A stretch of 64,000 nt of DNA from Thiothrix subterranea (GTDB lineage: Bacteria; Pseudomonadota; Gammaproteobacteria; Thiotrichales; Thiotrichaceae). Below are positions 24,828-36,061 of this stretch, in pieces. The stretch covers positions 1-64,000 of the forward strand of contig NZ_CP053482.1 in NCBI RefSeq assembly GCF_016772315.1, given 5' to 3'. The translations under genes were made by a program, and so were the position numbers. Each line of letters starts with the position of its first letter. Within the stretch, counting starts at the first letter, position 1. The notes under the pieces are model-generated. The model saw only the letters and a program-made list of their open reading frames with translations, did no database searches and was not told where the DNA came from.

Positions 24828-25919
24828 TCACACAATCGCGGTCGCCTTGATCTGCGCAAACACCGCCATCCCCACCTTCAACCCCAGTTGCACCGCTGAT
24901 TTCTGGGTAATGTGTGCCAGCAATGGCACACCGCCCATGTTCAAACGCACCATCACTTGCCCTGCCACGGGTTGCGCCATACCGGTAATACTCGCGGGCA
25001 ACACGTTGAGAATGCTGGTTTGCACCGGTTGTTGCAGCGTCAGACTGACATCGCGGGCATCAATGCGCAAGCGCAACGGCGTACCCACGGCGGTTGCCTG
25101 CTGGTAAGGCAAGCTGATCACGCCCCCCGCAAAACCGACGTGACTGAGGTGGAACTCCGGCTCATGATCCCATACCTTCACCTGCAACACGCTGGAGGCT
25201 TCTTTGCCTTGCGCCATCGGCGAATCCAGCCGCGTCAACACCTCCGCCAATGCGCCAGAAGCCACCACCTTGCCCGCTTCCAGCACCACCAGATGATCCG
25301 CAAGCTGGGTCACTTCCTGCGGTGAATGCGTCACGTACAGAATCGGAATATCGAGTTCGCGGTGCAAACGTTCCAGAAACGGCAGGATTTCCTGTTTGCG
25401 CTTGAGGTCGAGCGCGGCAAGCGGTTCATCCATCAGCAGCACTTGCGGCTTGAGGGCAAGGGCGCGGGCAATACCAACCCGCTGGCGTTCTCCACCGGAC
25501 AATTGCGCGGGGATTTTGTCCAGCAAATGCCCAATCCCCAACATATCCACGATCGCCGCCAGTTCGGCATCATTGGCGGATTGCGCGGCTCGTTTGCGCC
25601 CGTAATCCATATTCTTGCGTGCCGTCAAATGCGGGAACAGGCTGGCTTCCTGAAACACATACCCCAAGGGGCGTTGGTGCGTTGGCAAAAACACCCCCTT
25701 CGCGCTGTCTTGCCACACCTGCCCGCGCACTTGCAGGAAACCGCTGTCCGGGCGTTGCAACCCGGCAATGCAGCGCAATAAGGTGGTTTTGCCAGAGCCA
25801 GAATGCCCAAACAATGCGGTTACGCCCCGCCCCGGCAATTGCAAATCGGTTTCCAACTGAAAGCCACTAAAAGCCAGTTGGAAACGTGCATGTAAGTTGT
25901 CGTGCGGTGTATTGCTCAT
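24828..25919 (-). CDS. modC: Molybdate ABC transporter ATPase ModC
   Basis: A 363-residue ATPase: Walker A GHSGSGKT at 38-45, signature LSGGERQR near 135, Walker B VLLMDEP near 155, and a C-terminal Mop/TOBE molybdate-binding domain (about 295-360). This domain and position after modB identify ModC. The ATG at 25919 overlaps the modB stop (ATGA); an upstream open frame to 26006 was rejected. It energises molybdate import by ModB with ModA. Confidence 0.95.
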
Positions 25920-26596
25920 ATTTTTGACATCCTGATCCCACGGTTGAGGGTATACATCAGCAACAACACGATGAAGGAAAACACCACCATGCCGCCCGCC
26001 AGCCAATGGGCTTGTGCGTATTCCATCGACTCCACATGGTCATAAATCTGCACCGACACCACGCGGGTTTTGTCGGGAATATTGCCGCCGATCATTAACA
26101 CCACACCGAATTCGCCCACGGTATGCGCAAATCCCAGAATGCAGGCGGTAAGAAAGCCGGGACGAGCCATCGGTAACGCCACACTGAAAAACGCATCCAG
26201 CGGTTTTGCCCGCAGTGTACTTGCCGCCTCCATCAAGCGCATATCCAGTGTTTCAAACGCATTCTGGATAGGCTGCACCACAAACGGCAGCGAATAGAAC
26301 ACCGAAGCTACCAGCAAACCCGTGAAGGTGAACGGCAATGTCCCCCAGCCCAAAGCACTGGTCAATTGCCCAATCGGACCTTTTGGCCCCATCGTGATCA
26401 GCAGGTAAAAACCCAGCACGGTGGGCGGCAATACAATCGGTAAAGCCACCACTGCGCTTAACGGGGCTTTCCACCAGCGGCGGGTACGTGCCAGATGCCA
26501 TGCCAACGGTGTGCCAATCAGCAACAGAATCAGGGTCGTGAGGCTGGCAAGTTTGAAGGTCAGCCAAACGGCTGACCAATCGCTGGGGGATAGCAT
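25916..26596 (-). CDS. modB: Molybdate ABC transporter permease ModB
   Basis: A 226-residue integral membrane protein with about five helices and the binding-protein-dependent permease EAA-type loop ([20 protein letters not shown]). It starts three bases after modA and overlaps modC by four bases, so modABC is one tightly coupled unit. Length and sequence ([17 protein letters not shown]) match ModB. Confidence 0.95.
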
Positions 26597-26599
26597 GGT

Positions 26600-27373
26600 T
26601 TATTTCACCTCGGCTTTTTTCGGTAAAGCGTAACCATAGCTGGTCATGATGGCCTGTGCATCTTCCCCTTTCAGGTAATCCAGCAGGGCTTTGGCAGCGG
26701 CGTTATCCTTGCCCTTGGTTAACAGAACAGCATCTTGCGCCAAGGGTTTGTACATTTCCTGTGGCACAACCCAAACAGAACCGGACTTGAGTTTGTTGGC
26801 TTTGGATACCTGTGACAGTGCCACAAAACCCAGTTCCGCATTGCCAGTGGAAACGAAATCATACGTCTGGGTAATGTTTTCGCCCGTCACCAGTTTGGGC
26901 GTGATCGCAGCAGTCAGACCGAGCTTTTCCATCACCGCCATGCCCGCTTCACCGTAAGGAGCGGTTTTGGGGTTGGCAATCGCCAGATGCTGAAATTCGC
27001 CCTTTTTCAGTACGTCACCCTTGTCATCCACATAGCCTTCCTTGCTACTCCACACGACCAGCGTGCCGAAAGCATAGGTGAACTGGCTATCAGCTTCGGC
27101 TTGTTTGGCTTCGACCAGCTTTTTCGGGGTCTTGCTGTCGGCGGAAATGAATACTTCAAACGGTGCGCCGTTTTCGATCTGGGCGTACAGCTTGCCAGTT
27201 GCTCCAGCGGATACCTTGATGTCATGCCCGGTAGCGGCTTTGAATTTGCTACCGATTTCTTCCAGTGGCTTGGTGAAGTTGGAGGCAACGGCAACTTGCA
27301 CTTCATCTGCCCAAGCACTGGCAGTGCTGAAAGCGATGGCGGCGGCGAGAAGGGTTTGTTTAAACAGTTTCAT
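26600..27373 (-). CDS. modA: Periplasmic molybdate-binding protein ModA
   Basis: A 257-residue type II solute-binding protein with signal peptide 1-22 (cleavage after SAWA). Motifs typical of ModA are visible: [24 protein letters not shown] and the C-terminal YGYALP. It captures molybdate or tungstate for ModBC. It lies 43 bases downstream of modE on the same strand; no ModE-like operator was seen directly before it, so it is probably transcribed from further upstream. Confidence 0.95.
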
Positions 27374-27416
27374 GGTGAGTTCCTTAAATTGCTAGTGAGG
27401 AAAAATCAGTTGGTTA

Positions 27417-28217
27417 TTAGTTGGACACAGCAAGGATAATGTGCGATGCCTTGATCAAAGCGCAGGCTTTGTCCCCGACTTTCAGTTCCATATCCTGCAC
27501 GCTGTCGTTGGTAATAATCGCGGTGACGGTTTTGCCACCGGGTAATTCAATGATGACCTCGGCATTGACCGCGCCTTCTTGCACGCTGACGATCGTGCCA
27601 CGCAAATTGTTGCGGGCACTGGTTTTGATCTTGCCGTCGTCCTTGGCGAGGATCACCCACGGGGCTTTGACCAGTGCGTAGGCTTGCACGCCGGGCGCAA
27701 GGCCAAGATGCTCAACACTGTTGTGGGTAATAACGGCAACGAGTTCGTCACCGCCGCCGATGTCGAGAATGACTTCGGAATTAATCGGCCCGTTGGTTAC
27801 TTTGGTGACAGTGCCGAGAAATTGGTTACGGCTGCTGGTTTGCATATCGAATCTCCTTATTAGTTGAAAATATTGCTCAAAATTGTCCGCCACCTGCCCC
27901 AGTTGCGAGAGGATGCGGGCGTGTTCCTTTTCCATGTGGCGGTAAACCATCACCATGCGCCGCCCGTAAGCGGTCAGGTTGGTTCCGCCGCCGTGTTGTC
28001 CACCCGCTTGCCGTTCGACCACGGGTTCTTCTGACAGGTTGTTGACCATCAGCACGGCTTCCCACGCGGCTTTGTAACTCATGCCCATCGCTTTGGAGGC
28101 GGCGGAAATTGAGCCAGTGACATCAATGCGTTCCAGTAATTCCAGATAGTCCCAGCGTCGCCCGTGGCGTAGTGGGGTTGCCATCAGTTGTTGCATTTGC
28201 ATGGTGATGGTTTTCAT
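27417..28217 (-). CDS. modE: Molybdate-responsive regulator ModE
   Basis: A 266-residue protein. The LysR-type winged helix spans about 15-110 (TGSISAASKAMGMSYKAAW). Two Mop domains follow (about 128-193 and 200-265, each starting TSxRNxxxGT), which bind molybdate. This is the full ModE layout, as in E. coli. The start at 28217 follows a strong GGAGG site. ModE represses molybdate uptake genes when molybdate is plentiful. Four ModE-like palindromes occur at 33.7-36.1 kb in the same cluster. Confidence 0.95.
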   Translation of the reverse strand: MKTITMQMQQLMATPLRHGRRWDYLELLERIDVTGSISAASKAMGMSYKAAWEAVLMVNNLSEEPVVERQAGGQHGGGTNLTAYGRRMVMVYRHMEKEHARILSQLGQVADNFEQYFQLIRRFDMQTSSRNQFLGTVTKVTNGPINSEVILDIGGGDELVAVITHNSVEHLGLAPGVQAYALVKAPWVILAKDDGKIKTSARNNLRGTIVSVQEGAVNAEVIIELPGGKTVTAIITNDSVQDMELKVGDKACALIKASHIILAVSN

Positions 28218-28225
28218 ACGGCCTC

Positions 28226-35641: not shown

Positions 35642-35643
35642 TT

Positions 35644-35667
35644 CGCTATTCCCAAAAAAACATAACG
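35644..35667. promoter_or_regulatory. ModE-like operator 3, at the rhodanese-moeA start
   Basis: CGCTAT (35644-35649) and ATAACG (35662-35667) with a 12-base spacer match the ModE half-sites CGCTAT and ATAACG. The site begins three bases upstream of the rhodanese ATG and covers its ribosome-binding region (GGGAATAG on the minus strand). Confidence 0.6.
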
Positions 35668-35681
35668 AGTGGCAAAAAATT

Positions 35682-36032
35682 TTACAGGGTCAGGGATTCG
35701 GAACGCTTTGCCAGAAAAGCGTCAAAATCAGCGCGAACTGCATGGTAAAGCGCAATGGCTTTTTCGCCCGTTTCGGTCAGGCTTGCGCCGCCGCCGCCCT
35801 TCCCGCCCGTGGCACTGCTGACCAGCGGCGTGTGGCTGTACGTGTTCATTGAATTGACGAGTGCCCATGCTTGGCGGTAAGACATTTCGATGGAACGTGC
35901 CGCCGCGCTGATCGAGCCGTGTTCGCGGATACGTTCCAGCAAGGCAACACGGCCTTGACCGAGGAAGGTTCCTTGAGGGCTTTCGATCCAAAAGCGTCCG
36001 CGAAGGTGGTAGGTGTTGGGTACTGTATTCAT
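35682..36032 (-). CDS. ModE-type winged-helix regulator lacking a Mop domain
   Basis: A 116-residue protein equal to the ModE N-terminal DNA-binding domain: LLERIREHGSISAAARSIEMSYRQAWALV, then the GGKGGGGASLTETGEKAI wing. There is no molybdate-binding (Mop/TOBE) domain, unlike the full ModE at 27417-28217. Small proteins of this type exist in several proteobacteria and may need a separate molybdate sensor. The start could also be at 36050 (MIHNET). A perfect ModE-like palindrome overlaps the start region, suggesting autoregulation. Confidence 0.88.
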   Translation of the reverse strand: MNTVPNTYHLRGRFWIESPQGTFLGQGRVALLERIREHGSISAAARSIEMSYRQAWALVNSMNTYSHTPLVSSATGGKGGGGASLTETGEKAIALYHAVRADFDAFLAKRSESLTL

Positions 36033-36037
36033 GGTTT

Positions 36038-36061
36038 CGTTATGTATCATAAAACATAACG
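36038..36061. promoter_or_regulatory. ModE-like operator 4, at the short ModE-type gene
   Basis: CGTTATGT (36038-36045) and ACATAACG (36054-36061) are exact reverse complements around an 8-base centre. It is the best palindrome of the four. It sits five bases upstream of the short regulator's ATG and about 65 bases upstream of the divergent gene at 36125, which it might also affect. Confidence 0.65.

Follow-up and report, generated by a model that had tools for sequence, protein, structure and literature searches.

A TonB-dependent receptor (TBDR) is encoded within a molybdenum gene cluster of Thiothrix subterranea, in the first 64,000 nucleotides of contig NZ_CP053482.1 (the window, by which we mean the whole stretch analysed). 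Molybdate is usually thought to drift through porins to the ModABC transporter, whose genes lie in the same minus-strand run as the receptor. The run reads, 5' to 3', ModE-N, rhodanese, moeA, TBDR, SBP, DHOR, modD, modE, modA, modB and modC. The TBDR (31736-33712) is followed by a periplasmic binding protein of the FbpA/AfuA class (SBP; 30416-31720), which has a helical C-terminal extension and no permease of its own adjoining, and by a di-haem oxidoreductase with two CxxCH motifs (DHOR; 29085-30419; PF06537, E=8.5e-90). Upstream of the receptor are moeA (33930-35186; above the NF007960 cut-off), a rhodanese-domain protein (35183-35641; PF00581) and ModE-N (35682-36032, exact start uncertain), a relative of ModE with a helix-turn-helix (HTH) domain only, no TOBE match, and a score slightly below the TIGR00637 cut-off (E=1.4e-27; 95.6 against 98.5 bits). 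Downstream of the DHOR lie modD (28226-29071; TIGR01334), modE (27417-28217; TIGR00638), modA (26600-27373; TIGR01256), modB (25916-26596; TIGR02141) and modC (24828-25919; TIGR02142), all above the cut-offs of the models named. ModE, with an HTH and two Mop/TOBE domains, scored below the cut-offs of TIGR00637 and of the PRK10676 equivalog model, and the genome encodes both this two-Mop ModE and the HTH-only form. An earlier reading, made without database searches (the sequence-only reading), had placed TBDR, MoeA, ModD, ModE and ModABC on one strand. Domain and family profiles confirmed these identities, and the strand run stood as described; the HTH-only ModE, the rhodanese, the SBP and the DHOR belong to the same run and had gone unlisted.

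The sequence-only reading had also reported four palindromes with GTTAT/ATAAC halves, two of them before the receptor, and all four were confirmed, one with GCTAT in one arm. Two palindromes with a 12-base spacing (N12) lie at the start of the ModE-N gene (36038-36061, exact 36039-36060) and before rhodanese-moeA (35644-35667; GCTAT-N12-ATAAC), and these scored 14/20 and 13/20, respectively, against the published E. coli-type ModE consensus, ATCGNTATATA-N6-TATATANCGAT as given in a passage of PMC545781. The other two have N13 spacing and lie in the 220-bp gap between moeA and the TBDR: palindrome I (33904-33926), with exact GTTAT and ATAAC arms, and palindrome II (33739-33761), between a promoter element and the receptor start. 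Exact GTTAT-N11..14-ATAAC matches numbered three in the window against 0.11 expected, and three were reached in 0 of 100 shuffles. Genome-wide, GTTAT-N12/13-ATAAC occurred 9 times in 4.08 Mb, 3 of the 9 within 2.3 kb at this locus; a perfect, CG-flanked genome match at C1:3944316 seems, by eye, to fall within a coding frame. In 20,000 dinucleotide shuffles of the moeA-TBDR gap, two palindromes were never obtained and one was obtained 34 times. The shuffles, the genome-wide count and the recurrence of the palindromes in congeners (below) ruled out a chance origin.

A sigma54 -24/-12 element, TGGCATGGCTTTTGCT (33799-33814, minus strand), and a NifA-type upstream activator site, TGT-N10-ACA (33860-33875, minus strand), 61 nt before it, sit between the two N13 palindromes. 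Both were assigned from their motifs. TGGCATGGCTTTTGCT was the sole window match to TGGCAYRNNNNTTGCW (0.20 expected) and arose in 3 of 20,000 shuffles of the gap. TGT-N10-ACA is weak by itself, being found in 1,856 of 20,000 shuffles, and gains weight because its position is shared by five genomes, with three different sequences inside it. Both elements were present, 60-61 nt apart, in the congeners G061, G053, G060 and G049, and the inner ten bases occurred in three versions over the five genomes. A -24/-12 element with TGT-N10-ACA, kept in relatives, is the arrangement of a NifA/sigma54-type promoter. Congener G056, which had no NifD match, also lacked the sigma54 element. The T. subterranea genome encodes nifD and nifE, and its NifA scored above cut-off (684.6 against 528.85 bits); the same two elements precede its nifE, with 62 nt between them, and a NifH-like frame recognised from its P-loop, with 125 nt between them. 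This promoter suggests a reason for the molybdenum demand, namely nitrogenase. The interpretation in the sequence-only reading is partly supported: ModE-type operators recur in congeners and are enriched across the receptor family, and family receptors are encoded close to mod genes in many organisms (below). It had overlooked the sigma54/NifA-type promoter that the palindromes bracket.

ModE-N was searched for in 16 genomes of the genus, 8 of which matched (G057 weakly), and seven stretches from six matching congeners were compared. All four palindromes, spacing included, recurred in G053, G060 (C2) and G061, which bore out their expected conservation in related species. G049 had three, without a match to palindrome II (33739); G056 had two and lacked the intact N13 pair, a second G060 stretch had two, and G050 had one related match. 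In G053 and G060 the N13 pair directly precedes modE-modABC, and window 33736-33927 aligns there at 79%. In G061 the pair lies between moeA and a 145-aa frame, which is followed by modD-modE-modABC. Window 24000-29071 aligns to G061 at 93.9% and 33799-37086 at 94.7%, and no blastn match to G061 was found between 29072 and 33798. The TBDR-SBP-DHOR cassette (29085-33712, minus strand) is therefore missing at the corresponding place in this congener, and the leader that carries palindrome II has a diverged counterpart there. The slot behind the same sigma54/ModE promoter in G061 (L136:10134-10571, minus strand) holds the 145-aa frame, which looks hydrophobic, and no TBDR cassette; the content of the slot seems to vary between species.

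The receptor had been expected with mod genes across the Thiotrichales. This did not hold: among 63 genomes of the order, 1 had it (E<=1e-60), which rules out its conservation in the order at that threshold. The SBP was found in 1 of the 16 genus genomes. The simplest account is that this promoter is ancient in the genus and that the present lineage picked up the TBDR-SBP-DHOR cassette behind it; the cassette would have been gained here rather than repeatedly lost elsewhere.

Relatives of the receptor were found well beyond the genus. A draw of 369 genomes from the class yielded six relatives and the receptor itself, and 7/369 is a lower bound because no more than three candidates were scored per genome. 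Plasmid records yielded 23 relatives. A search with a 12-sequence alignment found at least 586 relatives, of which the nearest 80 (61% to 40% identical) were analysed. The plug motif is RGFDxRQVPxxxDGIPxYVPYDG. Since the sampling of the 80 by genus is uneven (9 Janthinobacterium, 6 Dyadobacter and 5 Duganella loci), counts by genus are also given.

The ModE consensus was scored in up to 380 bp around or upstream of each match start, with p values from 200 shuffles per region. The regions of 56/80 relatives reached p<=0.01, and those of L082 and L085 scored 20/20. A score of at least 15/20 was found upstream of 52/80 relatives compared to 4/721 other open reading frames (ORFs) of the same loci, which were the longest non-overlapping ORFs and perhaps not all genes. 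In a second test, the ModE score exceeded all 60 shuffles in 59/80 relatives' regions, whereas the score for the Fur consensus did so in 0/80; the upstream Fur site of a Fur-controlled siderophore receptor was thus not found in these regions. At the ends of 30 control siderophore-TBDR loci, ModE exceeded all shuffles in 1/60 and Fur in 5/60 (both ends of each locus were taken, so approximately half of the 60 are not upstream regions), and the ModE score was at most 14/20. Either a site of at least 15 or a mod/moe gene was present in 67/80 loci, comprising 27/30 named genera and 13/18 loci without a genus name. By group, this held for 54/61 Pseudomonadota and 11/14 Bacteroidota (Cytophagia 10/10, Pedobacter 1/4), and also for the single deltaproteobacterial metagenome-assembled genome and the single Acidobacteriota locus. 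The receptor is a member of a molybdenum-linked family with a predicted ModE switch in several bacterial phyla.

Neighbouring genes gave a similar picture. Within approximately 10 kb, ModE, ModE-N, ModD or MoeA was found in 34/80 family loci versus 0/20 control TBDR loci. The family count was 37/80 when ModABC was added (assigned by phmmer scores to the window proteins, which may take in kindred transporters), 68/80 with a small PF00174 protein added, and 71/80 with DUF2478. None of the 20 control loci had any of those genes; one (L188) had a DHOR-like gene. The controls were picked by hand among 36 places, spread over 25 genomes out of 56 from the same class, irrespective of mod genes elsewhere in those genomes; two of them come from the T. 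subterranea genome itself and three span approximately 11 kb. PF00174 was present in 49/80 family loci, ModD in 5/80 and MoeA in 4/80. In 91 loci, the first gene to be recognised downstream of the receptor within 900 bp encoded a PF00174 protein (39), an SBP (17), DUF2478 (9), a FecB-type protein (6) or a MauG protein (5), and 15 loci had none. Partner types changed at least 9 times on a tree of 63 receptors, a quick tree with 14 open forks, and these nine changes rest on it and on the 47 of the 63 rows that have one of three partner types. The linkage to molybdenum genes recurs over this tree. The window receptor groups, with support 100, with five Chromatiaceae receptors; a PF00174 gene is recognised beside four of these, whereas the partners of the window receptor are SBP and DHOR. 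Receptor and periplasmic module therefore seem to recombine. TBDR-SBP-DHOR is divergent from modE-modABC-modD in L051 and in three Sideroxydans loci (L054, L063 and L080), with ModE scores of 14-15/20 and a sigma54 element with TGT-N10-ACA approximately 100 nt upstream. A sigma54 match was found in 5/80 loci. The arrangement in L051 and Sideroxydans points to ModE and nif-type control of the same gene set in a second lineage.

DUF2478, a family of unknown function, lay near the receptor in 12/80 loci (e.g., L094:11931-12482), often with a FecBCD transporter, and may act in molybdenum handling. Plasmids also carried members of the receptor family. On pCMU01 of Methylorubrum extorquens CM4 (L031), which is typed as conjugative, ModE-type sites at 9715, 16045, 17215 and 19802 scored 15-17/20 within 22 kb that hold a TBDR, a cytochrome c peroxidase, DUF2478, DUF2325, ModE-N and MoeA. 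In the Pseudomonas aeruginosa plasmid record CP109682 (L033:9817-12381), a 17/20 ModE site precedes a TBDR and a small protein of the PF00174 type, and this pair adjoins moaA and narIJHG.

An E. coli plasmid record carried the arrangement FecB-FecCD-ATPase-methyltransferase-ModD-TBDR. This unit was found, at 80% coverage or more, in 2,094 of 5,426 complete E. coli genomes (approximately 39%), and 2,097 of its 2,105 places were chromosomal. A ModE site lies just before the first gene in both alleles compared. It scores 19/20 in the plasmid record and 17/20 in a chromosome from river water, and the dyad is kept although both arms differ between the two. The binding protein of the unit matched 4pag (E=1.6e-25) and then H. 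influenzae HI_1472 (MolA; 3psa; E=4.7e-08).

The window receptor has the architecture of a TonB-dependent transporter, with a plug (PF07715, E=5e-21) and a barrel (PF00593, E=3.6e-39). In Foldseek searches with an AlphaFold2 model (pLDDT 86, pTM 0.87), the nearest folds were BtuB, OprC, PirA and Cir (best E 6.5e-33; TM-scores 0.63-0.83 among the best 50 matches listed), and the fold does not name the substrate. All 25 NCBIfam matches listed were below their cut-offs; the siderophore receptor model TIGR01783 gave 143.1 against 223.5 bits, and the BtuB model gave 123.6 against 599.7 bits. Searches of window 24000-37500 against Rfam gave no match at the gathering score, cobalamin riboswitches included, and six relatives' loci had no cobalamin riboswitch and a single unrelated match, ALIL. 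Control by an RNA switch was rejected on these results, and control by iron or B12 was left unsupported by the profile cut-offs, the lack of a riboswitch in these searches and the Fur count in the relatives. The SBP, with its extra helical tail, could be placed in its class, and no solved structure matched the DHOR at E<=0.01. No NRPS (non-ribosomal peptide synthetase) condensation domain (PF00668) or IucA/IucC domain (PF04183) was found in the T. subterranea genome at E<=1e-10, other routes not being searched, which makes it unlikely that the organism produces a molybdophore of either kind itself.

Taken together, the receptor probably brings a molybdenum species across the outer membrane when molybdenum is short, under repression by molybdenum-bound ModE and with expression switched on alongside nitrogen fixation. 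ModE and NifA binding, the direction of regulation, transport, the substrate, and the roles of the SBP and DHOR are what we infer. The TBDR would serve as the entry point at the outer membrane for an operon that scavenges molybdenum, with its cassette standing behind a promoter that in sister species precedes modE-modABC, with or without modD. The sigma54 element and NifA-type site would turn the operon on during nitrogen fixation, and the two bracketing ModE-type palindromes would turn it off when molybdenum is sufficient. Energised by TonB, the receptor would take in a molybdenum species that is too scarce, or too bulky, to enter through porins; the likeliest candidate is an organic chelate from other organisms. 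A chelate made by others is likely because relatives have FecBCD-type partners, a methyltransferase and ModD, and because redox proteins stand behind the receptor. In the periplasm, the SBP and DHOR would bind or redox-process the imported species, and ModABC would move the freed molybdate to the cytoplasm for the nitrogenase cofactor (FeMo-co) and the molybdenum cofactor (Moco). It is possible, if short of probable, that ModE-repressed TonB receptors across phyla import an unrecognised environmental organic molybdenum compound through interchangeable inner modules. This compound might be a shared molybdophore or a cofactor-like molybdenum ligand, and the modules that release or carry it would be the PF00174 protein, the FbpA-like SBP with DHOR, the MauG-type peroxidase, or DUF2478 with a FecBCD ATP-binding cassette transporter. 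The E. coli module adds the methyltransferase and ModD, and the imported ligand would be what ModD acts on.

Several observations weigh against the proposed molybdenum import under ModE control. The palindrome pair before the TBDR is spaced by N13, which exceeds the published E. coli-type N12 by one base, and the window TBDR promoter scored 10/20 at fixed N12 spacing (p=1.0); it failed this test because its pair is N13. Thirteen of the 80 family loci lacked both a site of at least 15 and a mod gene; these include three of the four Pedobacter loci and the sole representatives of Bdellovibrionota, Thermodesulfobacteriota and Verrucomicrobiota. The ligands of proteins akin to the SBP in the PDB are iron or sugar phosphates, and the genome lacks NRPS and NRPS-independent siderophore (NIS) synthesis genes as searched. 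Within the genus, the presence of nif genes does not follow that of the ModE-N cluster: five of the 10 genomes with nifD had no ModE-N match and a sixth, G057, a weak one, and ModE-N occurred without nifD in G050, G056 and G061, the last showing NifE only. Since the two do not track, their co-occurrence was not used as evidence.

An alternative transport role, in which the receptor itself imports free molybdate (or tungstate) with no organic ligand, as OprC does with copper, is unlikely, though OprC chains are among the closest folds, an oxyanion importer (ModABC) is in the same operon, and the genome has no NRPS or NIS synthesis domains. The FecBCD-type importers beside some relatives and the methyltransferase and ModD of E. 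coli fit an organic ligand, although MolBCA of Haemophilus influenzae, which has an akin binding protein, carries molybdate. Against uptake of free molybdate it also counts that porins normally pass this ion.

Salvage of Moco or a molybdopterin derivative, caught by the small periplasmic PF00174 protein, would account for how often this molybdopterin-binding fold occurs in family loci and first behind the receptor, and for the ModD and MoeA genes in a few of them. We consider it improbable: the ten operon proteins scanned with Pfam include no PF00174 gene, released Moco is unstable, and, among the copies compared, five Bacteroidota PF00174 proteins and that of L057 lack the cysteine of the other proteobacterial copies. 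It is just as doubtful that the molybdenum operon merely took in an ordinary receptor for iron siderophores, haem or B12, with ModE control being incidental or the iron serving nitrogenase. The nearest NCBIfam scores were to haem and siderophore models and the SBP is of a ferric-binding class, yet those scores stayed below cut-off, ModE-like and not Fur-like sites precede the relatives, no cobalamin riboswitch was found in the regions searched, and the molybdenum linkage recurs across the receptor tree. The import of a molybdenum species remains our preferred explanation.

The siderophore and metal receptors Cir, BtuB, PfeA and OprC share the plug and barrel with the present family, which has profile matches to solved receptors. 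The family differs from them in its 15-18% identity in structural alignments, its own plug motif, its ModE-type rather than Fur-type sites, and its adjoining molybdenum genes. A TonB receptor within the modE/modG/modABC cluster of a nitrogen-fixing Azotobacter was noted in 2015, in one sentence of annotation, with the receptor said to be absent from the A. vinelandii cluster (PMC4465626). The passage gives no regulation, family or partners for it. This passing remark was the one mention of a TonB receptor for molybdate in the open literature searched, as far as the passages retrieved go. In P. aeruginosa, a ModA secreted by the type VI secretion system and the outer-membrane protein IcmP form an outer-membrane route for molybdate according to a passage of PMC8602904, a dedicated outer-membrane molybdate step as proposed here. 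TonB receptors of A. vinelandii that depend on VnfA1 are activated without Mo and V and are described as siderophore receptors (PMC9542535). These TBDRs are likewise switched on by an enhancer-binding protein when molybdenum is missing, the activator being VnfA1; vnfA1 and anfA are themselves reported targets of ModE. The passage on MolBCA identifies it as a molybdate importer and mentions no outer-membrane partner; its binding protein is akin to that of the E. coli unit (PMC7759655). The predicted ModE regulon of Geobacter includes 'several transport systems' (PMC2700814, in part), and no TonB receptor for molybdenum was named in the passages from PMC2700814, PMC11734730, PMC3056050, PMC4965479 and PMC12758843. 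TonB transport as such is known; the open literature searched yielded no molybdenum-controlled family of it with these sites, modules and spread. In Zymomonas mobilis, ModD and TonB-dependent receptors are both up under nitrogen fixation, according to an excerpt of PMC8600466.

The spread of the family, with approximately two fifths of the complete genomes of E. coli among its carriers, suggests that a route by which molybdenum enters cells has been overlooked. If this is true, molybdenum would be competed for like iron, perhaps via ligands, in nitrogen fixers, Bacteroidota and E. coli. The locus supplies a defined receptor, promoter and set of partners for seeking the molybdenum compound, and it suggests roles that can be tested for ModD, DUF2478 and small proteins of the PF00174 family.

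At the edge of the island, a putative membrane protein is encoded on the plus strand (window 36125-37087), divergent from ModE-N, and may share the 36038 operator. Its kin adjoin ModE-N in G053, G061, G056 and G049.

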